A DNA stretch of 64,000 nt from Sphaerolaimus hirsutus (lineage: Eukaryota; Nematoda; Chromadorea; Monhysterida; Sphaerolaimidae): positions 6,885,504 through 6,949,503 of the forward strand of contig OZ038460.1 of the NCBI GenBank assembly GCA_964036195.1. Direction: 5' to 3'. Below the pieces are notes generated by a model. The model was not told where the DNA came from. It saw only the letters and a list, made by a program, of their open reading frames with translations, and did not search any database. This document shows, in pieces, positions 4,901-59,590 of this stretch. The number at the start of each line of letters is the position of its first letter. Position 1 is the stretch's first letter. Both the position numbers and the translations under genes were made by a program.

Positions 4901-5312
4901 CAGGGACGTACGCAGGATTTTTGAGCGGGGGGGGCGGATTGTATACGGAGCCCGACGAACGGGGGGGGGGGGCGCCCCCCCCCCTTAAAATTTGGCCCTA
5001 TAGTAAAGGAATGGAGCCATGGCGCTGGCGCCATTTGTAGGCGCCAGCGCCATGGCAGTATTGGCGTTGGCGCTGGCGCCAACGTATACCATATAGGCAC
5101 CTATTAAGACCTAGATATAGTTACTATGACCACGTGGGGCACTTTTATAATGCTGTTCGGACTCCTGAAATTATACATTTAACAACGGGGTGGGGTTAGC
5201 GCGTTTGCGCGCAAAATTTTTTCAAAGTAGCTACAAAATAGCTTTACAAAAGTGCCATTCCTGGCAAATTTTTATGACCGGCCCGGGAACGGCCCCCCTG
5301 CGTACGTCCTTG
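4901..5312. mobile_element. hAT-type MITE with GGCGCC words, TSD GGTATGAC
   Basis: It starts CAGGGACGTACGCAGG and ends CTGCGTACGTCCTTG, flanked by perfect 8-bp duplications GGTATGAC (4893-4900 and 5313-5320). CAGGG-type ends plus 8-bp duplications are the hAT hallmark. The interior has poly-G/poly-C tracts and GCGCCATGGCGCTGGCGCC words. A second, related right end (5484, reading CAGGGACGTATCC on the other strand) lies in 5400-5484. Confidence 0.8.
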
Positions 5313-5950
5313 GGTATGACGTCATGATGGAGTGTTTCCTCCGGAAAAATGTACGGCGTAATGTCATCCGAGTATACAATGTTCCATGGCGCCATGGCGT
5401 TGCGCCAACTAGTGCCCCCCCCCCGTTCGCTGGCTTCCGTAAACAAGCAGCCCCCCCCGCTCAAAAATCCTGGATACGTCCCTGCACGCAAGTATAATGT
5501 CGCGCTGGCATATCTACTTCGTAGCAACGCGCGTACGATCTGCTGGCTTCCACCGAGAATTGCGTCTGCGAGTTGGCATCTGTGGCTGCTGCCTGATGTG
5601 CATACAAATCCATGTAAACAGATGTATTTGCATACCTCGCGGGTAATTTATGTATCGTATTTATGGCTAATTTGCTCGACAAATTGAGCGTCGAGCGTAC
5701 AACGCCTTCGGAATTTCTAATGGGAATTAAGCCGGGTTGAAAACGTTGTGTAGTTGATTAATTATCAATTGTAAAAGTTTGAAACTATGGTTGGTGAATA
5801 GGACGATGTGTCAGGGCAAAGTTGGTGTGGAAATGTGATACTTAATGAAAAAGCTTCTTGCTGCGATCTAAAAATAACTGCCCTGCGCTTGGGGTGGGCT
5901 TGGTTTTCAAAAATAGATTTCTTTTTGTGCTCTAAAGACAGTTTCTTTGG

Positions 5951-6868
5951 TGCCACACAGACTGGATGTCCACTGAAGTCACCTATGTCTAGGGTTGGCA
6001 TGCGATTTTTTTTAGCGATTTTTTTTTTATTCCGATTTTTTTAAATCGCAGCCCCTGCACCGATTTAAAAACTAATCGCTGGGGAAAAAATTTGGTGCTC
6101 ATGCACTAGGTAAAATGCAAAAAAATTTGCGCGCATGCGCGCAGTTTAATGCAAGCAATCAACCAGTTGCCTTTTTCATGGCTTTTACAAGCAATTTGGT
6201 GGTGTAGCACCCATTTCTGTGTGCTTTTAAGCATTTAAGGTAGGCTGTGAATCATTGGGGAGAAGTATAAATTGTTTTGCTGTGTTTTTATATCAAACAT
6301 GAATAGAAATGCATCCATGTTCACTTCAAAAATTATTTTTATTGTGTTGTTGGCAAAAACATGCAGTTTCTGCAAACACAATTGCAAATGGTCGATGAAA
6401 TTTTATTCACGCAGCAAATACAACAATTTTATTACTTTTAAACTTCACATACGACAACTTTTAAGCTTTTCCACAGCTCTACAGTGCTTATATTCCCACA
6501 GAAAGAATAACTGTACAATGCCTATCAATCGACATGCGTTTTATCACCCTCAGAGGCGATTTTCGAGAGAAATGGGACTAATTTTGGTCCCAGCGAGTTT
6601 TATTTAAAAAAAAGGTAGGGTTGGAAAAAACCGATTTTTTTAACGACCCCGATTTAAAAAAATCGGTTTTTTCCAACCCTACCTATGTCAGCTAAATATT
6701 GGTATATTATGTGATTTCAACCTTCCTAACTGATAGAGCATAGTTGATTTTTTACACCATGAATTGTAATTGTTTTTGTTAAGTGTAATGCTTTGAAAAG
6801 TATTGCGTTATTTAGTTGACATTGAGTTGACACGAATTCGCGATGTCAACTAGCGTGTGTTGGTCCAT
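5951..6868. mobile_element. Palindromic 'TTGACA' element split by a younger hAT MITE
   Basis: The left part (CCACACAGACTGGATGTCC) and right part (GATGTCAACTAGCGTGTGTT) match the ends of intact relatives at 15134, 22203 and 40373. The younger element 5990-6681 sits between them. The family resembles GGGCCCACACACTAGTTGACA and carries repeated GTTGACA/TGTCAAC words. Confidence 0.6.
5990..6681. mobile_element. hAT-type MITE, CGATTTTTT word, TSD CCTATGTC
   Basis: Ends TAGGGTTGG...CCAACCCTA are flanked by perfect 8-bp duplications CCTATGTC (5982-5989 and 6682-6689). The subterminal DNA iterates GCGATTTTTTT at the left and its complement AAAAAAATCGG at the right. The middle, about 6100-6600, is not repetitive, and its 111-codon frame shows no transposase motif. 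Confidence 0.88.
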
Positions 6869-7993: not shown

Positions 7994-8001
7994 CAATCAC
8001 A

Positions 8002-8538: not shown

Positions 8539-8548
8539 CAATCACATC

Positions 8549-8869: not shown

Positions 8870-8871
8870 CC

Positions 8872-9688: not shown

Positions 9689-10695
9689 CCGTATATCCTC
9701 GAATAAGACCCCCCTTGAATAACTCCCCACCCTTGAATAACTCCCCCCTCAAAAGCACTGACGAAAAAATAACTCCCCCCTTGAATAACTCCCCACCCTT
9801 GAATAACTCCCCCTCTATGATGAGTGGAGAAGATACTGCAACAAGTGAAAAAAAAACGAAATGCAAATGCAGTGTAGTGTGTGAGACAAAAAATACAAAA
9901 GAATGTTAGCCTACAGCAGCGAAAGCAGATACACAGTGCGTATTTTACGCAGTGTATACACACATACCTACCTGCAGTTAGGGTTCAAACGGGATTGACT
10001 TTTCGGGATCGGGATCGGGATTCACTTTTTGAGATTTCGGGATCGGGATCGGGATCGGGATTGGGGTTTCGGGATCGGGATTGGTTTTTTGAGATTTCGG
10101 GATCGGGATCGGGATTGGCCGGGATTGGGGTCACGGGATCGGGATCGGGATTGGGATAGGCATTTTTCCGGGATCGGGATTGGGTTCTAGGGATAGAGAT
10201 TTTGGCCATTTTTCTGGCATTCACAGTTGTTCATAAAGGTCTCAAAACACTGTTGGATGCCAGAAAAGTGGCATAAAATTGACGCTGGGGGTTTGCATCC
10301 ACTTTTTGCATGCAAAAACGTCATTATTTCACTTTCTATAATTTCCACTAATTTTTCCGGGATCGGGATCCCGGACTTGGGAGTTTCTCGGGATCGGGAT
10401 CGGGATTTGAAAACTTTCGGGATCGGGATCGGGATTGGTATTTTTGAGATTTCGGGATCGGGATCGGGATTGGGGTTTCGGGATCGGGATCGGGATCGGG
10501 ACTGGTAAATCCCGGAATTTCACGGGATCCGGGATCGGGATCGGGATCCCGTTTGAACCCTACCTGCAGTTTTCCTAAAAGTTATGAGGAAAAAATAACT
10601 CCCCCCTTGAATAACTCCCCACCCTTGAAAAACTCCCCCCTCAAAAACTCTGACGAAAAAATAACTCCCCGGGGGACTTATTCGAGGATATACGG
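9689..10695. mobile_element. TA-flanked CCGTATATCC element, poly-C rich, with nested insertion
   Basis: Ends CCGTATATCCTCGAATAAG...CTTATTCGAGGATATACGG are each flanked by TA. The subterminal word TTGAATAACTCCCC is repeated. It is interrupted by the 9979-10562 element. A related, uninterrupted stretch at 31398-31760 shows the empty site. Confidence 0.75.
9979..10562. mobile_element. hAT-type MITE built of GGGATC words, TSD CCTGCAGT
   Basis: Ends TAGGGTTCAAACGGGAT...ATCCCGTTTGAACCCTA have perfect 8-bp duplications CCTGCAGT (9971-9978 and 10563-10570). Both arms are arrays of GGGATC and GGGATTGG. A central unit (about 10200-10350) with TTTTTCTGGCATTCACAG recurs in the copies at 16287-16693 and 20411-20983. 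The same host sequence without the insertion is at about 31676-31700. Confidence 0.92.
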
Positions 10696-13926
<3,231 letters not shown>

Positions 13927-14061: not shown

Positions 14062-14881
14062 GGCGCCAGACCGGTGCACAAGTAAAACCGGTGCCCAAGT
14101 AGGGCCGGTGCACAAGTTATAATACCCGGTGCCCAAGTAGGGCCGGTGCCCAAGTAAAGTGCACCGGCCCTGGCATTGACTTGGGCACCGGGCAGCTGTT
14201 TACTTGTGCACTGGGCAGGTGCAAGCGCCCCGCCCGGTGCACAAGAATGGGTGCCATACTTGTGCACTGGGTGGTGCCGATCACAGAAACGTCAAGCATT
14301 GCTATTCTCATACAACTAGTGATGAAAAAGCGCCAGAAAAATAGGCACCATTCAAAATAATGGCGCCGTGCGCCAGATGGTGCCAGAGAAAAGGGCGCCA
14401 GTAACAATGGTGCCAGGAGCCAAAATGGCGCCAACAATTAAACGCCACTATTTCATATGTTTATCTATACTGAACTGTTTATGCAGCAGCAACGGTATGC
14501 ATTACATTTCTTTGATAGTGAATGGCCAAATACACTGCATCTATCCATTAAAAAAAATCTGAAAAACATGGCGCTCGCGCCCTTTGGCGCCTTTGGGCGC
14601 CAGCGCCATGGCGCCATTCCATCACTACATACAATGCTGCGGGGGTGAGCAAATCCTGGATGCTCAAGTAATCCCGGCCTGACGCAAGGTGCACAAGTGC
14701 TGCCGAAGTAATGCACAAGTGGTGCCCAAGCAATGCACGTGTATGCTCAAGTAAAAAGCCGCCCGGTGCCCAAGTACGGGCACTTTACTTGGGCACCGGG
14801 CCTACTTGGGCACCGGGTATTACAACTTGTGCACCGGCCCTACTTGGGCACCGGGTTTACTTGTGCACCGACCCGGCCCCT
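14062..14881. mobile_element. GGTGCACAAGTA word element, just 3' of VPS4
   Basis: The left arm repeats CCGGTGCACAAGTA and GGTGCCCAAGTAGGGCCG; the right arm is its complement, ending TTGTGCACCGACCCGG. The flanks TATGAAGC and TGTGAAGC match at 7 of 8 positions. A different element (14317-14627) lies inside. A fragment of the same family is at about 25545-25920. Confidence 0.7.
14317..14627. mobile_element. TAGTGATG/GGCGCC element nested in 14062-14881
   Basis: It runs from TAGTGATGAAAAAGCGCC to GGCGCCATTCCATCACTA. The flanks CATACAAC and CATACAAT match at 7 of 8 bases. The GGCGCC words extend inwards from both ends. Confidence 0.75.
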
Positions 14882-16083: not shown

Positions 16084-19000
16084 ATGCGTCGCGGCGTGTT
16101 GTATGCGGCACGAGCGGCGCCCAGACTGCTCGATGCCAATGCGGCTGCAGTCAGTAGTGCCCACGTTGTGCCCAGCGTGTGCCAACGTCGGGTGAGTGCT
16201 TGTTCTGATGGATATTATTTGAAATGTGAAAAACGGGCGAAAAGGCGCGTGCAATAGTGATTGTGAGGGCGAAAATAGGTAGGAAGTAGGGTTCAAACGG
16301 GATCCCGATCCCGGATCCCGTGAAATTCCGGGATTTGCAGTCCCGAAAATTTTCAAATCCGATCCCAGAAACTCCAAAGTCCGGGATCCCGATCCCGGAA
16401 AAATTAGAGGAAATTATCATAAGTGAAAAAATGACGTTTTTGCATGCAAAAATGTGAACGCAAGCCCCCAGCGTTCATTTTATGCCATTTTTCTGGCATC
16501 CAACAGTGTTTTGAAACTTTTATGAACAACTGTAAATGCCAGAACATTGGCCAAATACTCTATCCCAAGACCCCAATCCCGATCCCGAAAAAATGCCAAT
16601 CCCGATTCCGTGACCCCAATACCGGCCAATCCCGATCCCGAAATCTCAAAAAACCAATCCCGATCCCGAAAAGTCAACCCCGTTTGAACCCTAGTAGGAA
16701 GGGATGAAAAGTAGCCAATTTGAGCAAGTCTGGTAGAATTTCTTAGATAGCTGGCCAGGTATTTCAGATAGACAGCTGACCGATTTTTTGGGAGTGGTCT
16801 AGAAAAGAGAGGCCGAAAATAGATGAATATCTAAGCGGCCTCCGCGAAAAATATTTTGCTGGAGCGTTTGATGGTAACCCCCCCCCCCCCCTACTAGACA
16901 CGTGACTCTCTTGAACTTTTCGTCATAGACATTGCCCTCAGTTCCGTCACCGTTACCGCAAAATAATTTCACTCTGCCTCTGTTTCAGTCGGCAGCGCCT
17001 TTAAACCGCCTTCCATACGCCCTCCATTTGCACCGACGGATACCCACTTCGCAAGTGCGCGGTTTCGCAAGCTCCGCTGACAACGCCAAGCGGGAAGATG
17101 AGCGACAAAAACATGAACAACCATACAAGCAGGCTCCCGTGTCGAAAAACTTTTTGCAGAACTTGGCTGATAATATTAAGGCTGAGATTAGGCATAACAA
17201 GGAGTTGGAGGTAGGCTTTTGGCTCTACACACGAGTTGACATTAACATCCTTGTCAACTGGGTAAACTGGTTTCCATTCAAATTTTAGTTGACGAGTCAA
17301 AGAACTATGCATGTTCGTATACACAGGGTTCAAACGATATGACTTTTCGATATCGATATTCGATATTCGGTATTTTTTCAAAATTTTCGATATCGATATT
17401 TGATATTTTTTCTGAAACTCGATATTCGATATCGATACGATATGGAACCTCGATATCGATATTCGATATTCGATATTGAAAAATGGTCGATATTTCGATA
17501 TTTTCGATATTTGATATTGCGATATGCTTTTGGTATAGCAAGGCATATTTCAAGTGGCATATTGTATTTTCATGTGGTTGCACACATGTTTAATCATCTC
17601 TTTACTGAAATCTGAATGGTACAAGTGATTTTAACAAGCTTTACATCACTCAATGGTAGAAAATAGAAGAAAAACATGATGAATCAAAGTGTATCAGACA
17701 AATAACAATTGGTAGATATTACAGTTCATCCTTATAACCTAATTGCTTAAGGGCATGTTGCAAAAAAGTATATCAGCGTTTTCTGGCTTCAAATTTAGCA
17801 CTCCAACAACAATGACATTATAAATACTGTACTTTTACTCATTAAATACAATACTATAAGCACATCAGATCAACCATAAACATCTCAAAATGAAAATGAA
17901 AAGTACATTTCGAGACACAATACAGGTTCGATAGATCGAAAAAAATGGTCGATATTCGATATTTTTTCAAAATTTTCGATATCGATATTCGATATTAAAA
18001 AATGGTCGATATCCGATATTCGATATTCGATACGATATATCGTTTGAACCCTATATACACATACCATTACCAATATTAAGTCCTTTTCGACACACAAGCT
18101 CTTGAAAATTGTCCTGTCCGCGACCCGTCAACTGAAATCTAAATTGGCTTGGAGACCGGTTAGGTAGTTGACACACAATGTGTGCGTGTGTGTGTGCCGC
18201 GCCATTATGCTACTATTTATAATGTTAATTTAATTTCACCGTGGAATTTGCAGGAGAATCGCAAGCGTTTGAGGAATGAAATGAGCAAGCTGAACGAGTC
18301 GGATACGCTGAAAGAAGCTCGCCGGAAATATGTTCGTTTTGCACTGTTCAAATTTCGTTAAATCGCAGTCATCAAAATCAATTTGGCTCTACACCCACCA
18401 ACCGAAATTTTGAAAACTTACATAAGTTTACCGGAATGAATTGTATGTCTAGGGTTGGCCGATGTTTTTTAAAACGTTTTTTTTTTTTAAACATCGGCCG
18501 AGATTTTTAGTACTAAGCACTAGGTGTTTTGCAAAATTTTTGCGCGCAAGCGCGCAATTTCGCACACAAATTGACAATCCATTTCTATGTGCTACCATGG
18601 GTTAATAAGCCGTCAAATGTTGCTGTAGTATATAATTTTGAGGTAATGTGCTTCCATGCAGAGTTGTTAAAATACCGGTATTTTTGGAAAGCGTAAGCGT
18701 AAGCGTAAATACACTTTCCAAATTATGGGTATGGATACTAAAAGCGTAAGGTATTTTTAAAATACCTAGGAAAGCGTAAGAAAAAGCGTAAGCGTAAATT
18801 TTTTCTTACAAAGTGCTCTTGCTGCTGAACATACGATTATCGAATTACCGTATTTCCTCAAAATACCCCCTTGAAATACCCCCACCCTAAATGTGTCTAA
18901 AAATGTCCAAAAACTGTAGTTTGGTATCTGTGCAATGCGGAACACACGTTAAAAGGAATACCGAGCTATATTAGGACAGGGCTTATACAAACTAGGTAAA

Positions 19001-36075: not shown

Positions 36076-37126
36076 CAGGGTTGGTTTTATAAAAATTCAT
36101 TTTAGTAAAATTATATAAAAATTTTATAAAAATTTTATTTTATTTTTATTTTATTCTTGTTTCATTTTATTTTATTTTATTCCCAAAAGTCATTAATAAA
36201 ATAAAATGACACATTTTACAAAAATTTTACAAAAATTGTACAAAAATTTTACAAAAATTCAGAAACATGCATGCAAGGCCAGAAAAATGTTATAATTAGA
36301 CCTTCACATGAAAAACCTGTGACAAATTTTTCCCTTACTTTTCAAAAGTTGCATGCAGTATGTATTGTTAGCTAGCTGCAAGTGTAAAGTTACAATTATT
36401 GATAAGAACGGTTAGCATTTTCAGTAGAAGGACTACTGGAGTGTGCTGGGCACATTTGTAAAATGTCATGCAGTGTCAATTGTCATGACAAATGTAAAGT
36501 AAAGTATCAATTGTCATGCAAAATGTCAAGTGTCATGTAAAATTTCAAGCAAAGTGGCGATTGTCATGACAAATGTTATGCAAAGTGTAAATTGGGTATC
36601 CAAATCTTGTGTTTTTGTATCCATAGTATGTTTTATATCCAAATCTTATGTTTTTGTATCCAAATGTTCACATAAGATTTGGAGTCAACAACAACATAAT
36701 TTGGATACAAAACATAAGATTTTGAAATAAAACATGAGATTTGAACACAATTTGCTTGACAATTGATACTTTAATTTTTACATGTAACAACAATTTACAC
36801 TTTACTTTACATTTGTCATGACAATTGACACTTTGCATGACATTTTACATGACATTTGACACCTTACAATGATTGGGACTGCCCCCAGATCCATGAATAA
36901 ACAGGTAGAGACTCAAGCAATGAGATAAAAGTTTACAAAAAATATGAATTTTTATACAATTTTACAAAAAAGCGAATTTTTATACAATTTTACAAAAATT
37001 CGAATTTTTATACAATTTTTATTTTTATTCTTAAATTTTCCATTTTATTTTATTTTATTTTATTCTTGAATATTCCATTTTATTTTTATTTTATTTTTAT
37101 TTTTTTCTGAGATTTTGCCAACCCTG
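36076..37126. mobile_element. hAT-type MITE of ATAAAAT words, TSD TTCAGAAG
   Basis: Ends CAGGGTTGGTTTTATAAAAA...GATTTTGCCAACCCTG have perfect duplications TTCAGAAG (36068-36075 and 37127-37134). Arms iterate TTTTATTTTATT and TTTTACAAAAATT. A GTCATGACAAATGTAAAG hairpin fills the middle. Same family as 43503-45397 and 58104-59142, in the opposite orientation. Confidence 0.9.
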
Positions 37127-37134
37127 TTCAGAAG

Positions 37135-44300: not shown

Positions 44301-45563
44301 CGCCAGCGCCAAAATGATTTTGCTTTTAATGGTACAGATGAGACACACAGTACCATTTTCTTCAATTTCGATAACTTGTGTTGCCGTGTGTCAATAACTT
44401 GTGCACCAGGTGACAGTAGCCGAAAAAAATTCGCCTCAAGATAGATGGATAGCTTAGCTGGTCTGTGTTAGATAGCTGGTCGATTGGGGTGGTAGTACCA
44501 GCCCAGCCCCCCCCCCCCCATTGGAGACCCTGCACACCTGCAGTTCCATGAGAAAAGTGAGCACACCTTACTGTGATATTCAATATACCACATCAATAAC
44601 AAAACAAGACAATTTTAAATCATGATGCATAATTTATCGCATCACATTGTTGTAACATTCTTTGTACAAAGCAAGCAGTGAAAATACCAATCACTATAAA
44701 CAATTAGAAGTGGGAATGCAGAATGTAGATTTTAGAATGTAAATGTTTTGCAAAATTGCATTTTACACACATCTTTCTGCATCAATTAATGCAGAAAATT
44801 GTTAACTATGTGGCGCTTTTTTGGCGCTTTTAAAAACACTAGCGCCAAGCGCCAATGGCGCCACGGCACTATAGCGCCAAGCGCCAAAAGCGCCATGGCG
44901 CTTTTCAAAAGTCCAGCGCCAAGCGCCAATGGCGCCACAGCAAAATGGCGCCAAGCGCCAAAAGCGCCATGGCGCTTTTAGCTGGCGCTTTCACATCACT
45001 AGTCATGACACTTGATATTTTGCATGACAATTGACACTTTGCATGACATTTTACAAATGTGCCCAGCTCACTCCAGTAGTCCTATTGACAATAATTGCAG
45101 TAGCACTTGCAGCTAGCTAACAATACCTACTGCATGCAACTTTTGAAAAGTAATGGAAAAATTTGCCACAGGTTTTTCATGTACAGGTCTAATTATAACA
45201 TTTGTTTGGCCTTGCATGCATGATTTCGATTTTTTGTAAAATTTTTGCACAATTTTTGTAAAAATTTTGTAAAATGGTGTCATTTTATTTTATTAATGAC
45301 TTTTGGGAATAAAATAAAATGAAACAAGAATAAAATATAAAAAAAATAAAATTTTTATACAATTTTACTAAAATGAATTTTTATAAAACCAACCCTGACC
45401 ACAACCATTTGAATCTACAAACCCCACCCATCCACCCCCAAACCTGCTGCAGTAAACCTGGGCGTGGGCGGCAGGGGGGGCACATTGGTGTCGATGATGC
45501 CGTTGGTGCCGTCGCCGTTGGGCACCAGGGGGCGCGATGTGCCGAAGCCAGCACACGCCATAC
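38302..45563 (-). CDS. Extracellular protein with two tandem MAM-like domains (10 exons)
   Basis: Exons in transcript order: 45563-45444, 43239-43125, 43051-42948, 42309-42155, 41505-41356, 41159-40911, 39665-39499, 39208-39021 (end approximate), 38957-38853 and 38568-38302. All junction phases agree. Domain 1: FLNCAFDHDSEICHWQAVNG, SWFVFTGDGTGNRPS, LALDAWSATLVPRLQVC and PDVVLLDNIRYTATICPS. Domain 2: LECTFNNGDTCLYDSRGDG, IFGQPVKILIKSNSLAAGYA, ADLRFDYYTRSAGPTLEVC and KHNFVAVDNIQLDIP. The Cys-x-F opening, jelly-roll strands, L-x-V-C and the closing V-x-D-N-I strand fit the MAM fold used in cell-surface adhesion. The first exon starts mid-codon, so a 5' part is missing. The last exon reads to a stop at 38302, but a GTGAGT donor (after FRQAKNT) would allow further exons. 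The D-to-C exon join uses a weak donor. Introns hold many MITEs. Confidence 0.65.
39841..40282. mobile_element. Foldback element of GGGCGTAAAATTGA words
   Basis: Left: ATGCTGCGATTACAGCTCGG then GGGCGTAAAATTGA three times in variant forms. Right: the complement, ending GAGCTGTAATCGCAGCAT. No clear target duplication. It lies in an intron of the MAM-like gene. Confidence 0.7.
40373..40575. mobile_element. TTGACA-type palindromic element (MAM-like gene intron)
   Basis: It starts TGGGCCCAAACACACACACC and ends GTCAACTAGTGTGTGGGGGC, with the AAATAACACAAAAATAC core of the family. Confidence 0.65.
41614..42050. mobile_element. TTGACA-type element with nested GTAAAGT hairpin
   Basis: It starts GGGCTCACGCACACTAGTTG and ends CAACTAGTTTGTGTGGGCCC. 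The hairpin 41725-41922 (GGGGGCAGTCCCAAGCCCTG...CAGGGCTTGGGATTGGCACC) is inserted in the middle. It occupies most of the intron between two MAM exons. Confidence 0.7.
42544..42789. repeat. Two-copy tandem repeat, 123-bp unit
   Basis: Unit 1 (42544-42666) and unit 2 (42667-42789) both read CAGGAAAAAGTAGTGTCGTC ... TTATCGACTAAGACATAAGG, with a few substitutions. A lone TA-MITE right end follows at about 42800-42821. Confidence 0.9.
43306..43472. repeat. GTCATG/GTAAAATG hairpin element
   Basis: Left arm GTCAAATGTCATAGTGTCAA and AAGTCATGTAAAC; right arm GGGCATTTTACATGACTTTG and TTTACACATTTTACAG. Same words as the hairpin introns at 34931 and 61724. It lies in the intron between the first two MAM-like exons, next to the 43503 element. 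Confidence 0.65.
43503..45397. mobile_element. hAT-type MITE of ATAAAAT words, TSD ACCACAAC, with a nested element
   Basis: Ends CAGGGTTGGCAAAATC...TTATAAAACCAACCCTG have perfect duplications ACCACAAC (43495-43502 and 45398-45405). The middle has the GTCATGAC and ATCCAAATCTTATG hairpin seen in 36076 and 58104. The GGCGCC element 44109-45001 is inserted in it. Confidence 0.92.
44109..45001. mobile_element. hAT-type MITE of GGCGCC words, TSD GTCATGAC (nested)
   Basis: Ends TAGTGATGTGAAAAGCGCC...GGCGCTTTCACATCACTA have perfect duplications GTCATGAC (44101-44108 and 45002-45009). The empty site is present in the sister element near 58670-58690. Within it, about 44390-44535 is a GATAGATA/poly-C insertion. 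Confidence 0.92.
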
Positions 45564-45619: not shown

Positions 45620-45733
45620 CCGTAAATCCTCGAATAAGTCCCCCCTCTCGAATAACTACACCTCGATTAACTCCCCCTCAAAATATTCTGAGGAAAAAAT
45701 AACTCCCCCGGGGACTTTTTCGACAATTTACGG
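45620..45733. mobile_element. Short CCGTAAATCC/CTCGAATAA element
   Basis: Foldback with GCCGTAAATCCTCGAATAAG at the left and CGACAATTTACGG at the right; CCCCCT words inside. Family of the 9689 element. Confidence 0.6.
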
Positions 45734-47518
45734 TATTTACAAAAGCAACTGATGATAAGCAGCAAAATACTGTTTACACAAGTGGCATAAAAAGGGTCTC
45801 TCCGATGTGCAGAGGTGTTTATGACGTTTTGATTTTAAAATCAGTCGAACCTTTGGAGATCAGAGAGATTATGGTAGTGAAGAATAGTAGCATAATGTGT
45901 ATTGATAAACTTCTGTCCATGCTGACGATAGTCATTGTGGCTGCAAACGAATTGATACGAAAAATTATTTGATCCAACTACTTGATTCAAAATTATCAGA
46001 GATTCAGAAAGACCAACAGTTATAATGGAATATATTCCAAACCAAACCAAGAATTCAACAAAATGAACTGAACCGGCGGACCCTATCAGAACACAGGAAA
46101 TTCCTAAACTCCACCGAAGCTCAAAGAATTCACACAAGGCGAGGTCAATTCCTCAAACAATTTCTACATAATTTCTGCATCACTTGGAAAATGACCTACT
46201 ACCAAACGTCTGTAGGTCAAAACGGGGTTGAAAAGGGCGAAAATGTGTCGATTTCGAGCGATTTAGGCCGCGTGCAACTGGAAAATAGCCGATCCGTGAG
46301 ATGGAGGCGATGGGCCGTGAAACGTTTGGCATCTACAAAGCCGATTGCGCAGTCACAGTACGCAACGCATAGCCGGGGAATTGAAAGTTGGGCCACAGCG
46401 ACAGCGACATCAATGGCGACCCACAGACCAGTTGACACACGTGTGTCAACTGGTCTGTGTCAACTCCGCTGCGGCTTCAAGTGTCGCAGGGCGATTACCA
46501 AATGCACTGTTGAAGGCAATGTTGAAAAATAAATAGTATTTGTTAATAGAACTGTCAAGTGCATTTGGACATGTGAAGCCGAAATCTGAGTTGACACAGA
46601 CCAGTTGTCACACGTGTGTCAACTAGTGTGTGGGCCGTCAATAACGTTTTCGAATGAGTGTGAGTTCCTTGGACTTATTTGAAGGTGGACTTATTGGAGG
46701 TGACACGATACCTACCGATTTTCCGCCGACGCGCGAAAGTCGAAAATGTGACGCAACTCGATGCGGTTTGTGATTTTGATCCATGCGCAATCCGATGACA
46801 AAGTGTGAAGGAATGAAGACGTGTCATTTATGTCATCGTGATGTCCACTTGCTGAACTGCCCCGTTTAAAGTTGGACAAAGTGTCTACACTACAAATTGC
46901 TGACTGGCGTGGACAAAGCTACATGAAAAAAGCGCACAATACTAATATTTCGAATGAAATGTATGAGATGCATTAAATATCCATACTTTTCATACAAACT
47001 GACCAGATCTTGCCGCTTTTGTTCAACTATGCGGTGAAATCGATAGTGGAAATAACCATTTTACACGAATTCCAATTCCAGAACACAATTACTTAAATGT
47101 AAATGACACAATGTAAATCATGCGGCAATCATTTTGCAGGATTAATGCACGGTTGTGAAACCGTATTTACTTTTACTTGGAAAGTAAATACCTAGAATAC
47201 TTTTATTGAGTAAATAAATAAATTTATGTTTCCTCCCAATAAGAAGTATCTGTTCACTTTAAAAACATCGAGTACTGAAAACTTAATTCCCACTTTATTT
47301 GGAGTATACATTTAGGAGCACTTTGAGAAAGGTATTGCACTTTTAACAACTCAGGATGATTGCAGTATTTTCATCTTAGTCACACGACGACTTTTAAGGT
47401 AAAAAACGGAAATACCTACCCACCGAAAAATGGCGAAGTTGTAGTTAGTAATCAATTAATAATAGATGTAATGTGATGTTTGTTTGTATGACAGTTATAA
47501 ATACTGTGATATTGCATG
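45734..47518. other. Intron or intergenic DNA with one palindromic element
   Basis: 46416-46632 is a TTGACA-type palindrome (CCCACAGACCAGTTGACACA ... GTCAACTAGTGTGTGGGCC). Other frames, such as the hydrophobic minus frame 45841-46137, lack support. No exon joining the type II exons to the first MAM exon was found. Confidence 0.4.
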
Positions 47519-50157
47519 TAAACACCTTCCCGGACAAGTTCACCACCCATTTTTTTATTTCACTTCAAATGCAATATCTCCGTCCATGGGGGTGTTATAA
47601 AGCTGAAACTTTGTAAATATAAAGTTGTAAGACCCCTCTACTTCCCAACAATGGGGGAGGTGCGGCGACTCACTACAGGGTGGGTCGCCCTATATGCAAC
47701 ATTTTTTTTGGCGTTTTTGGTGTCCCAATCAAGTTCACCACCCACTTGATTGGCTACACTACAAGAGCCATATCTCCAGCTGTGATGGCGGTATAAAGCT
47801 GAAATTTGGGGGATGTCTTGCCAACAACCCCCCTCACAATACACCAGTGGTAACGATGGCAAACCCCCGAGAAAAAAGTATTTAAATTTTTAAGTGTTTT
47901 TTCTAAAACTAATTTTCGAATTTTCGAATTTTTCCCCAAATTAATTTTCGAATTTCGAATTTAATTTTCGAATTTTCGAATTTTCGAATCTTTTTTAGCA
48001 ATTTTCGAATTTTTTTGGCCAGTTTTCGAATTTTTTCAAATAATTTTAGAATTTTTTGGAAAAATATCGAATCTGAAGCTTTAAACACATTATTTGGACT
48101 GTTTTCATATTCTCCTCAGTTTTTATAACCTTAAAACGTCCCATAATTTAGCATTAAAAATGGTGGAAGGAGTTATACGGACCAGTGTCCTGCTTCTTCA
48201 TTTAATTCACACATTGACACATTCAATTCACCAACGCAGCAAAGGCAATAAAAACAACAATTTAAAAATCGGTGTCAAAAAAAATATTGGCATCAAATAG
48301 AATATTGGCATCAAATAAAATATTGGCATCAAATACCATATTTCCTTGAATTAACCCCCCCCCCCTGGGGGTCTATTACTTTGCAAGAAATTTTTCGAAA
48401 TCCCAGTGCTAAATTGTTTTTTTTTGTAAGTAACACAAATGTAAAAAATGCAACAAAAACCGCCATTTATAAGACTCTATAGACTTAATATAAGTACGTA
48501 GACTGTACAAACCCTGTTCTAACGCAACACAGTCATTTTTTTCACGTGTTTCCCAGATAACAAACCGCACAAACGTTCTCTATACACCAACATTGGGCGC
48601 GGTATTTCGGGGGGGGGGGGGGTTATAAATTCATAGGGCAAATATTGAGGGGGGTATTTTGAGGGGGGAGGATATTTCAAGGAAATATGGTATAAAAACG
48701 GATGTGTCGAAGTCCGCCTCTTCCGCCGCGGATGACATTTCAATGTTTTTTTTTGTTACGTTTCGCTTTTTCATACGCGCCGCATATCAATTGTCGCTTT
48801 ATTTAGCACGTTGAACTTAAGAATGCGTTTTGTTGCCTTGAAATGCCTGAAAAATTCGAAAACTATTTTCGAATTTTTGAATTTTCGAATTTTCGAATTT
48901 TTTGAAAAATAAATCGATTTTTAAGTGTTTTTTCTAGGGGTGAAATAAAAATTCGAAAATTCCGGAAAAATTCGAAAATTCGAAAATGTTTTCGAATTTT
49001 CGAATCTTTTTTGGCCATCGTTAACCAGTGGGGCAGCTGCCGACGACCCACTAAAGCAAGGGTCACTGCATATAAAGTTGACCATTTTCTAAAAACAGCC
49101 CAAGTGTCCCAAAACAAGTTCATCGCCCAACTGCATTTAAAAAAATGTTGCAACAACATACCTAACATAAAACTGAATCGGGTTGGAACCCTAGTTCAGC
49201 CACCAAAATTTTTTTTCAGTAGGGCACCCACCCTGCCCCATAAACGGTAGACCGAAAATTTCACTTTAAACCAAATTTTTGTTTCACACTTAAAAAGTTG
49301 GTTTACAAAGTTCACTAGAGAATGGTCTAAGGTTCAAAGTTATGTAAACAACATAACCTCTAATATGCCCCCATAAGGAAATTTACTTGGGGTGAATTCT
49401 ATGATGTCAAAATGATGTCATTGCAGGAACAAAATTTGACAAAATTTTCATATTTTCATTCACCCCAAATAAATTTCCTTATGGAAGCATTTTAGAGGAT
49501 ATGTTGTTTACATAACTTTGAACCTTAGACCATTCTCTTAGTGAACTTTGTAAACCAACTTTGAAAGTGTGAAACAAAAAATTGGTTTAAAGTGAAACTT
49601 TCAGTCTGCCATTTATGATGGGGGTGGCTAAACAAAGGAAAAAAATTTTATTAGTAGAAGTAGGGTTAAAACCTGATTCAGTTTTTATATAAGGTATGTT
49701 CTCAAAAAATTTTTTAATTCGTTTAGGTGGTGAACTTGCTTGGGACACTTGGGTCGGTTTTTTAAAAAACAACAATTTTATATACAGCGGCACAAACTGT
49801 AGTGGGTCTTCGGGAGCTGCCCCACTCGCATTTAGTAGGGGTGGGTGTTGCCAAAATACCCCAAAAATTTTAGCTTTCTACCACCCCCGCAACTGGAGAT
49901 ACAGCTCCTTTAGTGTAGCTAATCAAGGGGGTGGTGTACTTGTTTGGGACACGGAAAACCCGGCAAAATTTTTTTGCTTATAGGGCGACCCACCCTGTAG
50001 TTAGTCGCCATGTCTCCCCCCACTGATACAGAGTAGAGGGATGTTACAAGTATATATTCACAAAGTTTCAGCTCTATAACCCCACCATAGCCATAGATAT
50101 AGCTTCCGAAGTGAAATAAAAAAATGGGTGGCGAACTTGTCTGGGAAGGTGTTTATT
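47519..50157. mobile_element. 2.6-kb foldback element with several nested repeats
   Basis: Long inverted arms: TAAACACCTTCCCGGACAAG at the left, CTTGTCTGGGAAGGTGTTTA at the right, continuing with CACCACCCATTTTTTTATTT and GACCCACCCTGTAG motifs for several hundred bases. TTCGAATTTTCGAA word arrays lie at 47880-48070 and 48860-49010. A TA-flanked poly-C element (48336-48690) and an inner palindrome (about 49190-49660) are inside. No transposase was seen. Confidence 0.75.
48336..48690. mobile_element. TA-flanked poly-C/poly-G element (nested)
   Basis: It starts CCATATTTCCTTGAATTAAC and ends GGATATTTCAAGGAAATATGG, each next to TA. The middle shares AAATGCAACAAAAACCGCCA with 54943-55393. Confidence 0.75.
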
Positions 50158-51941: not shown

Positions 51942-54426
51942 CAGCCCAACATCTCCATCTCTGGTTACATTCCATCCAAATTTCTCTTTTAATTTCAGCT
52001 CCAACTCTTGCTCTTTGACCCAAAAATAGATCAAGCCAGAAAAAAGCACAAAGAGCACAAAGAATAGCACAATTGGCGTAGTGCATCTAAATCTTGCCAC
52101 TAAACTATGCTGGTTTTCTTCGCTGTTCCACGGGCCGAATGCTAATTGTCTGGTCATTCCGAGTTTCTTGGTGGGGGGGGGGGGGTTGTAAAATTATATG
52201 GTGTCAAGTTAGAAGAATTTTATTTGTGCAATTGATATATTTTCAATACGAGACTTTATTTAACATTTACAAAGCACAATACTGTTTCCCGTCAGTTTCT
52301 TTATTTTCATATACCTATGTTCAGATGGATCCCCATAATCATGTTAACCCCCTCGAACACCCGAGTACAACACATCATAATAACCCCCCGCCTCGTTTAA
52401 CCCCCCCCCCTCAAAATTTAACCCCCCCCCCCCCCCGAAGCAATCACCCCAGGGGGCATTTCGATGATATACGGTAAATACGATTTAAATCGAGTCCAAT
52501 ACAATCACACTTTTTTGGGATCTTTCAATGAGCGTAAACCAACCAAAATGTCCCTTTCCACATTATATGGTCGGCTGGGGCTAGAATTATGCGAATTCCA
52601 TGCATTATTCATCGATACTGAACTGAGTCTACTCTGTCTCGATGTGGCTCGAATGAACGTTGGACTAGTCAGCGGTGACTTTTGAATGAATAGTCCCTTT
52701 ATGCTGGTGCCTGAGGACTGGGGACCACCTCTGCTTTTTGAAGTGTTGCTCTCGCGGCGGATTTTAACCTGTGGTATTTTAAATTGAGAATTTGGCTTAT
52801 TTCATTTTATTTTCACTGTATTGGCGAAAAATATTGGCATTGATTTGCTTATATTTGAATCACAATACAAAATTATTTTATGTTAATATTTAATACAAAT
52901 TAACTGATGTTTGATCCAAAATGAATTATCGATGAAGAAAATGTTCAATCCAAACTAGTCACTAAGCTATGGATTGGCTAGTTTCACTAATCTTCAAGAA
53001 TGCTAAAGTTATGGTCCATAACTTTAGCATTCTTGAAGATGAGTGAAACTAGCCAATCCATAGCTTAGTGACTAGTTTGGATTGAACATTTTCTTCTAGG
53101 GTGTCAAATTTACGTTCTCCCTTTTCCGAAGGCAAAATTTTTCCATTTCCGTTTCCTGTAAAAACTTTTTGACACACTAGTCACTGTTGATGACATTTAG
53201 CTATGCCAGATGATAGATACGGACGTCATTTGCCAAAAAGAGTCCTTAAGTTTCAAGTGTTTTCTTCAAACTTCAAATTTATGTCACAACATTTTTTCAA
53301 AAAGTTCCAACTTCCAACCAACCTTAGCTTTAAGTTTGAAAATGAACAAGTTAATGTAAGCCAGAACGCCCCACTTGTGGTCGCTGCTCATTTCGCTGTC
53401 TTGATGCGGCAGTTTTTGCTTTGTTTGATTTTGTCTGCTCGATTTTCGACTACGGGAGGATCGATCGCTATTTGTAGCCGAATTTCTGAAGTTTTGGGAG
53501 TTTTTGAAGATTTTGAGTTAAAGAAACTGTAAAACTCATAAGACAGAAAAATAGCGAATTTACGGCGAATTCTCTTTCTATCTGCCCCAGATGATAAATT
53601 ACCAGAATTCGACAAATCGCAGCGATAAATCAAAGTTAACAGTAGATAATGAAAGCTAACCAAGACCCGGGCTACTGATGTAAAAAGCGCCAGAACTTTG
53701 GCGCCAAGCGCCAAAAGCGGCATGGCACTTTTCCGACCTCTAGCGCCAAGCGCCAATGGCGCCAGAGCCAAATGGCGCCAAGCGCCAGGCATTTTGTTCC
53801 TGGCGCCGGGTAAAAATAGCGCAAGCGCCAAAAGCGCCATGACGCCTTTTGCTTTGGCGCTAGCGCCATTTCGCTTTTACATAACTAACCCGGCAAAATC
53901 TCACTACCCAAAGCCAATTTTTTTCTGTCAATTTGACACACAGAGTCAAAATATCATTTAAAATGACCAGTATGCAGGAAAAAAATTGTCGGGGCACTTA
54001 AATCGCGTCACTTCGAAAAGCCCGGACTCACATGGTGATTTTCACGGGCACCGGTGCGCACACGGCACAATCCATCAATGTCTCGGCGCTATTAGTTTCT
54101 GACTCATTGAAAGGCGGCCTATTTTTATGGCTGGCCATTGCGCCATTATAATATCTCGACCTGACATTTTTATCCTCGCTAGCCTTCCTTTGTAGAAATC
54201 TCTGATCGATAGACGGGCTGGCGCCGGACGTTGACGTCATGGCTATGGAGCCCTTTTTTGTCGGATAATTAGAATTGGGAGAATGATAATTTCCGTTCGC
54301 ATTTGATTGTTCATGGTACTGGTGGTAGGACTCGCCGCTGTCGTGGTGGTTTGGTTGCATATTGCCGAATTGTTCCTTGTGCACGTCGTGCAGCCGCCGG
54401 GCGTTGCTCAAGTAGATTTGATGCAT
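51942..54426 (-). CDS. Type II membrane protein, cytoplasmic head and membrane segment (3 exons)
   Basis: Exons: 54426 to about 54032, 52768-52544 and 52166 to about 51942. Exon 1 starts MHQIYLSNARRLHDVHKEQF and is polar and rich in Asn, His and Ser. Exon 2 is Ser/Arg-rich (VKIRRESNTSKSRGG, SPTFIRATSRQSRLSS), like a phosphorylated cytoplasmic region. Exon 3 has basic residues (HSLVARFRC) before one membrane span (TTPIVLFFVLFVLFSGLIYF) followed by a charged helix (KEQELELKLKEKF), so N-in/C-out. The exon 1-2 junction is unsettled: the best donor (GTGAGT at 54031) is out of phase, while weaker in-phase donors exist just upstream. No stop-ending exon follows, and the next coding exons on this strand are the MAM-like ones starting at 45563. 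One gene (type II anchor plus MAM ectodomain) is therefore plausible, but a linking exon is missing. Confidence 0.5.
52934..53096. repeat. Near-perfect 163-bp hairpin
   Basis: The left arm GAAGAAAATGTTCAATCCAA...AATGCTAAAGTTATGG and the right arm are complements over about 80 bp with one or two mismatches and almost no loop (centre near 53015). It lies between exons 1 and 2 of the type II gene. Confidence 0.9.
53673..53887. mobile_element. Small GGCGCC-word element
   Basis: It starts TACTGATGTAAAAAGCGCC and ends GCGCCATTTCGCTTTTACAT then AACTA. The flanks ACCCGGGC and ACCCGGCA agree at 6 of 8. A decayed member of the TAGTGATG family. Confidence 0.75.
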
Positions 54427-54942: not shown

Positions 54943-55393
54943 CCGTATTTCCTCGAAATACCCCCCGGGGGGTGATTGTTTCATAGTGGTCCCGAGAGGG
55001 GGGGGGGGTTAAACGAGGGGGGGTATTTAGAGGGGGGGGTATTATTTCACAAGAAAATTTTTGAAAACCAAGTACGAAATGGTCGTCTGAAACGTACGCA
55101 GACGTCAAAAAATGCAACAAAAACTGCCATTTATAAGGTTCTGTAGACTAATATTAGTACGTAGATGGTATAAACACTGTTCTAACGTGATTCCGACATT
55201 GTTTTAACGTGTGTTCTGCACTACGCAGAACATAAACTGCCGTATTTGTCATGTACGTTCTCTTTACACTCAATTTGGGGGGGGGGGTATTTCGAGGGGG
55301 GGGGGGTGATTGTTTCATAGTGGTCTCGAGAGGGGGGGTCAAACGAGGGGGGGGGGTATTTCAAGGGGGGGGGGGTATTTCGAGGAAATACGG
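54943..55393. mobile_element. TA-flanked CCGTATTTCC element with poly-G arms
   Basis: Ends CCGTATTTCCTCGAAATACC...GGTATTTCGAGGAAATACGG sit between TA dinucleotides. It is an inverted, highly similar copy of 31840-32292, including the unique core. Confidence 0.85.
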
Positions 55394-57339
55394 TAGTTAA
55401 GTTTCTAAGGTTCAAACGGGACCATAAATTTTTAATCGATACCGGAACCGGAGCTGGAGCATCGGGACAGTGACCGGAACTGCCTCAGTCCCGGAAAATA
55501 TCCCGAACCAGGTAACGGGATCATGGTCCCGCATGAAACTTAGTTTGAACTATCACTGCTGTAGACAGACTAATAAGTGCACTGCGTTCGTGCCATACAA
55601 TGAAAACGTGTGTTGAGTTCTACGTCAAATCATAGATATTATCCAATATTGAAATTATGACGTATCGTCTCAAAAGAATTTACATGTGTTCTAGAAAAGA
55701 TAATTTTCAATTTGCATTACTAAATATCGGTAATAAAACATTTCACACTCATGCAAAAGTAAAGTAAACTGTTTAAATTTCGCGTAATCAAAAGCGGCGC
55801 AGTTTAGAATCATCCAGAAGGTAAAAGTGTTATTCATTTAAATAAATTACAGATTGGCAAGACAAGCTGCAAGTCTGGTCATACGACAGAAAGTGAATAT
55901 TCAACATTCAGTGTACAAGAATCGAAGCGTGTAAGTAAAATAATAAAATGCACGCTTGATGGGATTTATAAATCGAAACATCGACAATGTCAGCAGTGTA
56001 CGAGATAAGGCTGGAAATTGTAGCTACATCAACGTTTTTTATTTTACCAACAGAACACAGTTGTTAGAACACCAGCCAGGTTGGGTGAATTCGTCGTCCC
56101 AGAGGGGGGGGGGCTATTTGAAAAGATAAGGTAGCAGTCGCACGCGACAAATCCACATCACTCTGATTGGATTGGATAGCGTGACCAAACAGAACTTGCA
56201 CATTTCGAACTCAAATAAATAACACACACACATCCACAGCACATGTAATTTATAACGCTTTGCTGCACACTTGAATTTATGGGGATATGAATCATTAACT
56301 TTCTCAATACCACGGAATAAATGAAGAAATAAATGGCCAGCCACGGCTTAGATATAATGAAAAGTGAAGAGAAACTGAGTGATTTTGATGCTAACACTAC
56401 TCCATGTTCAATGGAAGTGCACCGCAAATGAAGAGTTGTTAAAAATACTTAACTTTTCAAAGTATAGTACATGAATGAGTTTACTTTGACCTTTTCTCCC
56501 CTGAGGCCTGAGTACAGAAAACGTATTTTTTACTTTTATTCATGAGTAAACGTGGGTAAAATATTTTTTCTCCAGAAAACGTAAAAGTGAGTAAATTTGA
56601 GAAATTTTGCACCAATTTCCATCACAAGACTCTTATAAACACATATAAAGCGCAAATGTCGCTGCGCACTTGTAAACATGATATGGTAGTCCTTTGAGCG
56701 CTGGCACACAATCAGTGATTTCTGGCACTGGCACCCAGTATTATACCGCGCCCTGTCGTCACGGCCACTGGCAAACGTGAGAGGCCAGAAAACGTGGCAA
56801 ATTTTCCACCTCTAACGTGCGCTCGTTCAACCACAATAACACGGCACGGCGAGACACAAGCGTCGGGCTACCCGTATGTATTTACTAGTATCTTTAAAAG
56901 ATTCAAGCACACCTACCTACCGACCAGCGAGGTATATTGCTCACACTTAAACGCGATTATAGCGGCAGTGGAATGAAATATATTGCCCAGTGCCACAGAA
57001 TAGGTACCTACCGTTTTTACAACAATAATTCCCCTGGGAATTTTCATTTTCGTGGAACCTTTTTGAAGGGGGGGGGGTATTTATTTTTTCATCAAATTTT
57101 TTTCACATGTTTCTATTACACTACATACACATGTAAGTGTGCTTTCTCTATTGCACATTCAATTGCATCCACGCACACGATCCATCAAACCAGACACAGC
57201 TCTTTTGTTTCGTCTGACGTCAACGATTGTTTTTTTAAAGATAAATATGCATTATCTTTCTTCCATCATTGAGGACGGGGGGATCATTCAAGTGGGAAAA
57301 ATATTTTTCCTCACTCGTCTAAGAGGGGGGATTTATATT
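55394..57339. other. Intergenic DNA with decayed repeats
   Basis: 55408-55548 looks like a worn TAGGGTTCAAACG-type element with CCGGAAC/GTTCCGG words. 56430-56600 is a worn GTTGTTAAAAATAC element. 57060-57080 has poly-G. No gene is supported. Confidence 0.45.
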
Positions 57340-59590
57340 AGGCTGTAAACTAAGTTTCTTATATTTTTTGAAATCTCATAGAAATGCACATTCCTGCATC
57401 CCATTTTGTTGTACATTGACCAATTTTGATGCCCTTCGAGTATGTTGGGGTTTTGGGTCTGGGCTATGCCGAACTGTCTTGGTTTGCTCGAATAATCCCC
57501 CAGTCCCGAGATAAGGGGGACTATAAAATGGTGGTCATTTTGCACGGATGATCTGCACATTGACTTTCAAGCTTAATAACTTGCCCATTTATTTGCCGAT
57601 TTGGATCATTCGACACTTAAAATTATCGGGACAACCTGAAGATTCCATTTTGGCGGTCGGATTAGTGATGCCTGAATTCCGTATGTCGATTTGACCCGGT
57701 TTTTGAACACGAAAAAAATAATTTTTTTAACATGCTATCATATACTTTAGGCAACGAGAATTCATCTAAAACAAAAATGAATTCAATATCTCTTTCCAAT
57801 CAAAAGTTATAGCACTTTGAACTTTCACCTACCGCTCATAAAATAACCGCATGAAGAACAGTGCATACAGATAATCAGAACATAAAAATAAATTCTACAG
57901 GTCATTGTGATCATTTTAAGCATTCATAGGTGAAAATCGGCAGAGAAATGGCCGAGATATAGAGTTTTGAATTTGCATGCTTTGTTCTTCATGCAGTAAT
58001 TTATATTTATGGTTTGGGCGTGCAAGTTTAAAGTCCTGTAACTTTTGACTGGATCGAGATATTGAAACAATTTTTGGGCCAGATTTATTCTTTTTGTCTA
58101 AAGCAGGGTTGGCAAAATCTCAGGAAAAAAATAAAATAAAAATAAAAATAAAATGGAATATTGAAGAATAAAATAAAATAAAATAAAATGGAAAATTTAA
58201 GAATAAAAATAAAAATTGTATAAAAATTCGAATTTTTGTAAAATTTTTGTAAAATTGTATAAAAATTCGTATTTTTGTAAAATTGTATAAAAATTCATAT
58301 TTTTTGTAAAATTTTGTCTCATTGCTCGAGTCTCTACCTGTTTATTCATGGATCTGGGGGCAGTCCCAAGCATTGTAAAGTGTCAAATGTCATGTCAAAT
58401 GTCATGCAAAGTGTCAATTGTTGGGACATGTAAAATGTAAAGTATCAATTGTCAAGCAAATTGTGTTCAAATCTCATGTTTTATTTCGAAATCTTTTGTT
58501 TTGTATCCAAATTTTGTTGTTGTTGACTCCAAAATATTATGTGAACATTTGGATACAAAAACATAAGATTTGGATATAAAACATACTATGGATACAAAAA
58601 CACAAGATTTGGATACACAATTTACACTTTGCATGACATTTGTCATGACAATTGCCACTTTGCTTGAAATTTTACATGACACTTGACATTTTGCACGACA
58701 ATTGATACTTTACTTTACATTTGTCATGACAATTGACACTTTGCATGACATTTTACAAATGTGCCCAACACACTCCAGTAGTCCTTCTACTGAAAATGCA
58801 AACCATTCTTATCAATAATTGTAACTTTACACTTGCAGCTAGCTAACAATACATATTGCATGCAACTTTTGAAAAGTAAGGGTAAAATTTGTCACAGGTT
58901 TTTCATGTAAGGTCTAATTATAACATTTTTCTGGCCTTGCATGCATGTTTCTGATTTTTTGTAAAATTTTTGTACAATTTTTGTAAAAATTTTGTAAAAT
59001 GAGTCATTTTATTTTATTAATGACTTTTGGGAATAAAATAAAATAAAATAAAATGAAACAAGAATATAATAAAAATAAAATAAAATTTTTATACAATTTT
59101 TATACAATTTTACTAAAATGAATTTTTATAAAACCAACCCTGGTCTAAAGTATATGATAGCATGTTCAAAACAACCGTCTTTAAAAAGTATTATTACGAC
59201 TATTTTTCATGTTTTAAAACTGGTTCAAATCGGCATACGGAATTTAGACATCACTAATCCGACCGCAAAAATGGAATCTTCAGGTTGTTTCGATCATTTT
59301 AATTGTTGAATGATATAAATCGACCCAGAAATGGCCAAGTTATTAAGCTTCAAACTCAATGTACAGATAATCTGTGCAAAATGACCACCATTTTATAGAC
59401 CCCCCTTATCTCGGGACTGGGGGATCATACGAGCAAACCAAAACAATTCGGCATAGCGCAGACCCCAAACCCCAACATACTCGAAGGGCATCAAAATCGG
59501 CCAATGTATAATACAACAGAATGGGACGCAGGAATGTGCATCTCTATGAGATCGTAAAAAATATAAGAAACTTAGTTTACACCCTAATAC
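57340..59590. mobile_element. Large foldback element interrupted by a younger MITE
   Basis: The left arm (from about 57343, GTAAACTAAGTTTCTTATAT) is complemented by the right arm (to about 59578). They share GCCCTTCGAGTATGTTGGGG and CCCAGTCCCGAGATAAGGGG. Element 58104-59142 is inserted near the loop. Confidence 0.75.
58104..59142. mobile_element. hAT-type MITE of ATAAAAT words, TSD GTCTAAAG (nested)
   Basis: Ends CAGGGTTGGCAAAATC...TTATAAAACCAACCCTG have perfect duplications GTCTAAAG (58096-58103 and 59143-59150). This copy lacks the GGCGCC insertion found in 43503-45397. Confidence 0.92.

Follow-up and report, generated by a model that had tools for sequence, protein, structure and literature searches.

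Word-armed hAT derivatives in a nematode genome: repeated subterminal motifs as candidate transposase-binding sites

Miniature inverted-repeat transposable elements (MITEs) with arms that carry many copies of one short word are found in 64,000 nucleotides of the nematode Sphaerolaimus hirsutus (assembly GCA_964036195.1, contig OZ038460.1, forward-strand positions 6,885,504 to 6,949,503), a stretch that we refer to as the window, and elsewhere in the genome. The word, for example GGGATC, CGATAT, GCGTAA or TTCGAA, differs between families. We propose that the words are binding sites of hAT transposases and that their identity shifts with the transposase lineage, a reading to which we assign a probability of about 0.75. 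The hAT origin put forward in a preliminary description of this DNA is borne out by 8-bp target-site duplications, by remnants of the dimerisation region in four word families and by an autonomous-type hAT element with a BED finger and words at both ends.

hAT ancestry and abundance

A search of the genome for the hAT dimerisation family (PF05699) gave 28 places, 20 of which lie, by their coordinates and words, inside word-armed elements. These are eight AAACGG elements with ends TAGGGTGTCAA (L009, L010, L014, L028, L029, L030, L033 and L036), three CGATAT elements (L016, L018 and L019), two ACGTAA elements with ends CAGAGTTG (L012 and L015) and seven TTCGAA elements with ends that are TAACGATGGC or nearly so (L021, L022, L024, L025, L026, L032 and L034, of which L024 and L025 are neighbouring, near-identical copies). 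A perfect 8-bp duplication flanks 17 of the 20, the AAACGG and TTCGAA copies having come from a scan that demanded one, and none of the three CGATAT elements. Against a cut-off of 21.4 bits, the PF05699 matches reach 65.3 bits in the AAACGG family, 43.5 in the CGATAT family and 33.4 in the TTCGAA family, with 49.1 and 47.1 in L012 and L015. Of the other places, one (L011) belongs to the autonomous-type element described below, four (L013, L020, L023 and L027) have related words nearby, their enclosing ends not being delimited, one (L017) is accompanied by CGATAT words on a single side and two (L031 and L035) have no words.

The AAACGG, CGATAT, ACGTAA and TTCGAA families are hAT derivatives, and the GCGTAA family adds a possible fifth; a GCGTAA element of 829 bp (L119, duplication GTTTATAC) contains a fragment that matches the putative catalytic exon of the autonomous-type element at 37% identity (E 3.3e-6). 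No PF05699 place among the 28 was assigned to the GGGATC family, whose elements have an end of about 24 bp in common with those of the CGATAT family, which contain hAT remnants. For the GGCGCC and ATAAAAT families it is the 8-bp duplications that suggest a hAT origin. The 157 word copies counted in the eight AAACGG elements, on a single strand in each, repeat the hexamer of the maize element Ac; as about eight words were examined, coincidence appears unlikely.

The autonomous-type element, L078, spans 6,006 bp (reversed, within C3:40500-50499), with ends CAGAGTTGTTA and the duplication CGCCAAGG. Its coding capacity, as read from exons, comprises an intron-split BED finger, a putative catalytic exon and a dimerisation exon. 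With the two exon halves joined as the query, the BED finger matches PF02892 at 24.2 bits (cut-off 20.6); the dimerisation exon scores 61.9 bits with PF05699 and has the Hermes transposase as its best match in the PDB (7.8e-13). D-x-W-like exons are visible by eye in L078 and L119, with no Pfam match for the catalytic domain. Counted on both strands, CGTA is present in 16 copies within the left 160 bp and in seven within the right 170 bp. This corresponds to 70 per kb at the ends versus 1.76 per kb inside and 2.5 per kb in the flanks, and the two ends are the densest intervals. The words are thus present in an autonomous-type element, as the preliminary description required. A second, rearranged copy (L142) has nearly the same left arm.

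Other places were considered as elements of the L078 type. Of three that also match its putative catalytic exon, L119 proved to be the 829 bp GCGTAA derivative and L120 and L121 gave no ends; L143 looks like a host gene that has BED exons and lacks such ends. This host-like gene (C1:12779900-12788899) has two sets of BED exons that are 47-58% identical to the L078 finger, carries GGGATC-rich insertions and is possibly a domesticated hAT. Six of the ten zf-BED places (L037-L039, L041, L042 and L044) are BED-finger exons clustered at C1:7466186-7488648, which may be a host gene; L042 contains a CGATAT element.

Exact matches to end patterns were counted in the 348 Mb genome, with the reversed pattern as control. 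The pattern TAGTGATGN{4,7}GCGCC gave 18,758 matches (control 22), TAGGGTGTCAAMWWW 11,362 (7), AGGGTTCAAACGGGAT 8,798 (0), CAGAGTTGNNMAAATAC 4,988 (1) and AGGGTTCAAACGATAT 3,273 (0). With two ends to each element and the CAGAGTTG pattern taken as one-sided, we estimate that there are of the order of 26,000 elements, a figure that solo ends would raise and that misses mutated ends and leaves the ATAAAAT and TTCGAA families outside the count.

Boundaries in the window had been picked for good duplication scores, and samples from the genome therefore offer a fairer test. They were drawn from the initial 6.7 Mb of contig C1: 31 adjacent facing pairs of GGGATC ends among the matches listed (single ends excluded), 12 of the first 14 facing CGATAT pairs (those of 188 bp and 1,089 bp were skipped) and 48 of 100 listed CAGAGTTG places, 20 of them selected to represent end variants, for which the best match to CAACT[CT]TG was taken as the right end. 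The duplication is perfect in 24 of the 31 GGGATC elements (7/8 in three more), in 9 of the 12 CGATAT elements (7/8 in one more) and in 28 of the 48 CAGAGTTG elements (7/8 in one). Of the other 19 CAGAGTTG elements, 14 show no recognised right end within the sequence retrieved, and five have one with a mismatched duplication. Genome copies therefore do carry the 8-bp duplications on which the preliminary description depended.

Layout of the words and their change between families

Words were counted and compared with shuffles in 15 of 17 candidate elements picked by eye within the 64 kb of the window. In 12 of the 15, exact words take up 16-43% of the outer quarters, and in three they take up less; when one mismatch is allowed the cover is 26-62% in 14 of the 15. 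The arms are thus rich in the word, not made almost entirely of it as first described. The excess over shuffles is strong for GGGATC (28 words in the element at 9979-10562 against a shuffle mean of 0.24), CGATAT, GCGTAA, TTCGAA and the larger GGCGCC elements, and more modest for ATAAAAT (13-15 words against a shuffle mean near 2 and a maximum of 7).

Nor are the arms composed of a word and its complement, as had also been stated; the words run predominantly on a single strand through both arms. The majority strand agrees between the two arms throughout the 80 elements with polar words, namely 24 GGGATC elements scored for GGGAT (the sampled ones of 380-700 bp and three from the window), 13 scored for TTCGATA, eight for AAACGG, 30 CAGAGTTG elements with both ends for [AG][CT]GTAA, three for AATAAAAT and, for GGCGC[CT]T, only the two GGCGCC-family elements at 19745-21248 and 44109-45001. 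On the majority strand are 679 of 722 words for GGGAT, 237 of 246 for TTCGATA, 157 of 157 for AAACGG, 355 of 411 for [AG][CT]GTAA, 34 of 40 for AATAAAAT and 25 of 32 for GGCGC[CT]T. The word originally given as GCGTAAATAC is better read as GCGTAA within a longer conserved skeleton.

The arrays could be functionless, microsatellite-like by-products of slippage that merely nucleated at hAT ends. Gain and loss of whole units does prevail in the word clusters: when 17 GGGATC elements are compared in 136 pairs, indels of at least 3 bp are multiples of 6 in 627 of 958 cases there, versus 90 of 791 elsewhere. Substitutions, however, are rarer in words, at 436 of 17,678 positions (2.5%) compared with 3,145 of 51,044 (6.2%) elsewhere, where a position counts as word when the word is intact in either copy; both sets of rates are descriptive, because the pairs are non-independent and alignment is forgiving in arrays. 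The free variation that the preliminary description expected of microsatellites is seen in the number of units, with fewer substitutions in their sequence. Slippage is also at odds with the CAGAGTTG elements, where words form separate clusters at fixed positions with unique spacers between them, with the autonomous-type element, in which the word is concentrated at the two ends and infrequent elsewhere, and with a change of word that is coordinated across two arms. We regard it as distinctly improbable.

It is also conceivable, if somewhat unlikely, that same-strand arrays matter because the arms anneal to one another, which leads to internal deletion and so to MITEs. Five of the sampled GGGATC copies are 58-169 bp long; in four of them (L053, L054, L061 and L076) the duplication is perfect and the join appears by eye to run from word to word, whereas L070 (58 bp) has no duplication. 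Such deletion might be only incidental to the layout, and it leaves word conservation and coordinated switching unexplained. Smaller units of 38-44 bp, consisting of two facing GGGATC terminal inverted repeats (TIRs) with a few words between them, occur in unrelated places (L002, L003, L004 and L007, around 1482-1525), with a target-site duplication in none of the four.

Our reading of the words as transposase-binding sites draws most directly on families that have their ends in common and differ in the word. The TAGGGTTCAAACG end is followed by GGAT in the GGGATC family and by ATAT in the CGATAT family, and CAGAGTTG ends occur with ACGTAA, GCGTAA or GTGTAA. In CAGAGTTG elements the arms, about 145 bp at each end, align readily, while the cores differ among many; the copies sampled have separate word clusters at the same positions between unique spacers. 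By majority word, the 52 elements (the 48 sampled, the window element at 18659-19377, L012, L015 and L119) comprise 19 with ACGTA (class A), 20 with GCGTA (class G), seven with GTGTA (class T) and six that are mixed or nearly wordless.

Consensus arms were compared for classes A, G and T (18, 19 and 7 left arms; 14, 12 and 4 right arms), leaving out L098, which represents the L097 insertion a second time, and L133, which has few words. A and G differ in the distinguishing base at all 15 sites, in the other word columns at 0 of 60 and in the spacers at 27 of 212 positions (13%). For G and T the corresponding values are 13 of 13, 1 of 61 and 14 of 212 (7%). Words are fully uniform in 34 of the 43 classed elements with at least six readable words, a count that inherits the omission of the six mixed or nearly wordless elements (L096, L101, L102, L105, L106 and L128; L128 has seven GCG and four GTG words, L102 two and three). 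In a tree built from the spacers only, class A forms a single clade (support 1.0) within G, L099, L100 and L140 form another (0.93), and in 29 of 30 cases the word agrees with that of the nearest neighbour by spacers.

Neutral concerted evolution, in which gene conversion or template switching spreads a variant to all clusters, would also alter many sites together. Tandem units clearly expand and contract, and GCGTA is found in class A at right-arm sites 73 (3 of 14) or 94 (2 of 14), as partial spread predicts; these copies, and L128, may be intermediates. Lone words amid unrelated spacers have nevertheless switched too, in both arms of elements that mostly measure 0.5-0.9 kb, and the other word columns stayed fixed (0/60) while the spacers diverged (27/212). 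We consider neutral spread quite unlikely as the explanation. Methylation-driven CpG decay of GCGTAA words has been considered for the GTGTAA words, GCG to GTG being a CpG transition. L141, in class T by majority and examined as a second GTGTAA origin, resembles a G element that has decayed (9 GTG, 4 GCA and 2 GCG). The remaining six T elements, however, have 60 GTG with no GCA or GCG and a few other readings or gaps, which disfavours decay as the cause; moreover, five of the seven non-word CpGs of the G consensus are retained in T, and the difference between ACGTAA and GCGTAA is left without an account. Decay is highly improbable.

Several observations weigh against our proposal. Only two switches are seen on the CAGAGTTG skeleton, and the class contrast is partly built in because the classes were defined by majority word; word uniformity and the spacer-only tree are independent of that definition. 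The GGGATC and CGATAT arms, once thought colinear throughout, align only in the outermost 24 bp or so. The near-palindromic TTCGAA family (TTTTCGAAT) has no clear polarity, with three elements the same, one opposite and three without a call. A single autonomous-type, BED-bearing lineage was recovered, comprising the complete-looking L078 and the rearranged L142. The PF14372 search for the catalytic domain gave no match, and its controls gave none either; a search with a typed 63-residue hAT block, run without a working positive control, likewise gave no catalytic domain, and none of the ten zf-BED places was shown to lie inside a word-armed element within the 3 kb loci used. Since these searches yielded none, most word families have no known transposase here, and the autonomous hAT partners that the preliminary description called for were not found for most families. 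In maize, some Ds1 elements that lack AAACGG are still mobile, whereas some Ds-like elements that carry it did not move, so that, as far as the available part of the source goes, words alone are neither strictly required nor sufficient there (PMC3260210).

Elements of the window

The 8-bp duplication is perfect in 13 of the 17 candidates, with 7/8 in two and 6/8 and 5/8 in one each; when window ends were wrongly paired, 0 of 272 combinations reached 7/8 or better. Thirteen non-overlapping element intervals amount to about 11.3 kb, or 18% of the window, and nesting is frequent.

Three GGGATC elements lie at 9979-10562 (plus strand, ends TAGGGTTCAAACGGGAT, duplication CCTGCAGT, 28 exact words), 16287-16693 (words on the minus strand, duplication GTAGGAAG, 11 words) and 20411-20983 (plus strand, duplication GGTACTGT, 26 words). 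The CGATAT element at 17324-18053 (plus strand, ends [C/T]AGGGTTCAAACGATAT, 32 words) has an imperfect duplication, reaching 7/8 only when both boundaries are shifted 2 bp inward (17326-18051). It contains a remnant of the hAT C-terminal dimerisation region at 17722-17795 on the minus strand, in two adjacent short pieces of the C-terminus in different frames (tblastn E 0.003 per piece). The GCGTAA element at 18659-19377 (plus strand, ends CAGAGTTG, duplication CTTCCATG, 13 words) is nested in an outer element at 18450-19717 (ends TAGGGTTGG, duplication TGTATGTC).

GGCGCC elements are found at 19745-21248 (plus strand, ends TAGTGATGGAA, duplication ATGGGGAT, 34 words), which encloses the GGGATC element at 20411-20983, at 14317-14627 (ends TAGTGATG, duplication 7/8, six words) and at 53673-53887 (degenerate ends, duplication 6/8, four words). 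A GGCGCC/AGCGCC element of weak polarity at 44109-45001 (minus strand, ends TAGTGATGTGAA, duplication GTCATGAC, eight words) lies inside the ATAAAAT element at 43503-45397 (plus strand, duplication ACCACAAC, 13 words). The other ATAAAAT elements, which like it have ends CAGGGTTGG, are at 36076-37126 (minus strand, duplication TTCAGAAG, 15 words) and 58104-59142 (plus strand, duplication GTCTAAAG, 14 words). A larger inverted repeat at 57333-59592, with arms of up to 202 bp and 87% complementarity, surrounds the last of these.

The TTCGAA element at 47851-49023 (plus strand, ends TAACGATGGC, duplication ACCAGTGG, 19 words) is of one family with the hAT-remnant copies L021, L022, L024-L026, L032 and L034. 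A CGATTT element at 5990-6681 (ends TAGGGTTGG, duplication CCTATGTC) has a weak array of only nine words. The element at 4901-5312 (ends CAGGGACGTACG) has the 8-bp duplication GGTATGAC, yet the one word tried covers 3% of its arms, and the putative duplication of a ACCGGTGCCCAAGTA-armed candidate at 14053-14892 matches at 5/8 only.

A separate family is represented by the element at 9692-10697, which encloses the GGGATC element at 9979-10562. The family has ends TACCGTATTTCCTCGAAATACCCCC or TACCGTATATCCTCGAATAAG, C-rich words such as CCTTGAATAACTCCCC and flanks that are apparently TA and not an 8-bp duplication; stretches at 18848-19080, 45620-45735, 48335-48695 and 54943-55395 are similar by eye. 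Word-rich arms may thus extend beyond hAT elements. Two inverted-repeat elements at 12812-13035 and 46424-46630 have TGTCAACTGGTCTGTG-like ends and are flanked by palindromic CACATGTG or ACACGTGT.

Proposed mechanism and known systems

In the model that we favour, the elements are highly abundant non-autonomous derivatives of several hAT lineages. Their arms would serve as arrays of a subterminal motif at which N-terminal BED fingers gather several transposase protomers per end, the tip of the TIR being the cleavage site. Repetition of a short site would make end recognition cooperative and specific, and words that lie mainly on a single strand through the element would render the two ends unlike each other, as in Hermes. 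Should the recognition of the transposase shift by one base, elements with fully matching arrays would be the ones mobilised; word identity would then change in concert across the sites, with skeleton and spacers inherited. Because one BED lineage was recovered, we infer, and do not observe, the code between finger and word, that is, binding of the word by BED and a change of specificity that drives the switch.

A more speculative extension, which we think rather unlikely, is that the code is self-isolating: hAT lineages would escape their own MITEs by one-base shifts in BED recognition, and the MITEs would follow, all of their roughly 15 sites changing in concert. If this is true, the series from GCGTAA to ACGTAA, from GCGTAA to GTGTAA, and of CGGGAT and CGATAT is a fossil record of an arms race between transposase and parasite within one genome. 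Subterminal repeats of hAT elements are known; the puzzle is how a transposase manages to alter a site when each element has about fifteen copies of it. Three words on one skeleton, with about 5,000 end matches, provide a natural series for the study of BED specificity, site number and cross-mobilisation, and sister word families could help to predict which transposase mobilises which MITE.

The TU foldback elements of sea urchin have 8-bp duplications and tandem short repeats in their arms, and the TIR of maize Ac begins TAGGG, as do the ends of the AAACGG family here. Galileo, a Foldback-like element of the P superfamily, has long, internally repetitive ends with several sites for the transposase domain, and its binding is partly subfamily-specific; it differs from the present elements in that the domain is THAP, not BED, and the repeats are long and tandem instead of 6-mers, according to the available portion of the report (PMC3688188). 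A short subterminal motif is critical for transposase binding in Herves, and its importance has been suggested for Kat1; in contrast to the situation here, each has a single motif in few copies in the sections accessible to us (PMC3143072, PMC4763223).

Hermes of the house fly resembles our elements in the dimerisation match of L078, the BED finger and the multiple short subterminal repeats (STRs). BED binding to the STRs is cooperative; numbered from each tip, STR2-7 of the left end are antisense and STR1-5 of the right end sense, and symmetrised elements with two left ends are inactive. In our reading, this too amounts to a single strand throughout, provided that each end is read towards the interior. 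The Hermes motif differs, being AAG(T/C) in 17 and 14 copies, and the accessible part of that paper describes no word-switched MITE series (PMC10368747). Nor was concerted word switching found described in the available parts of open-licence PMC papers, although other descriptions may exist.

A further parallel is with maize, where the Ac transposase binds the hexamer AAACGG. To judge from the available text, Ac/Ds shares with the present families internally deleted derivatives with other filler and AAACGG near both ends (PMC3260210). The Sphaerolaimus elements differ from Ac/Ds in that several words occur in one genome, often in more copies, and in that sister families with switched words are built on one skeleton.

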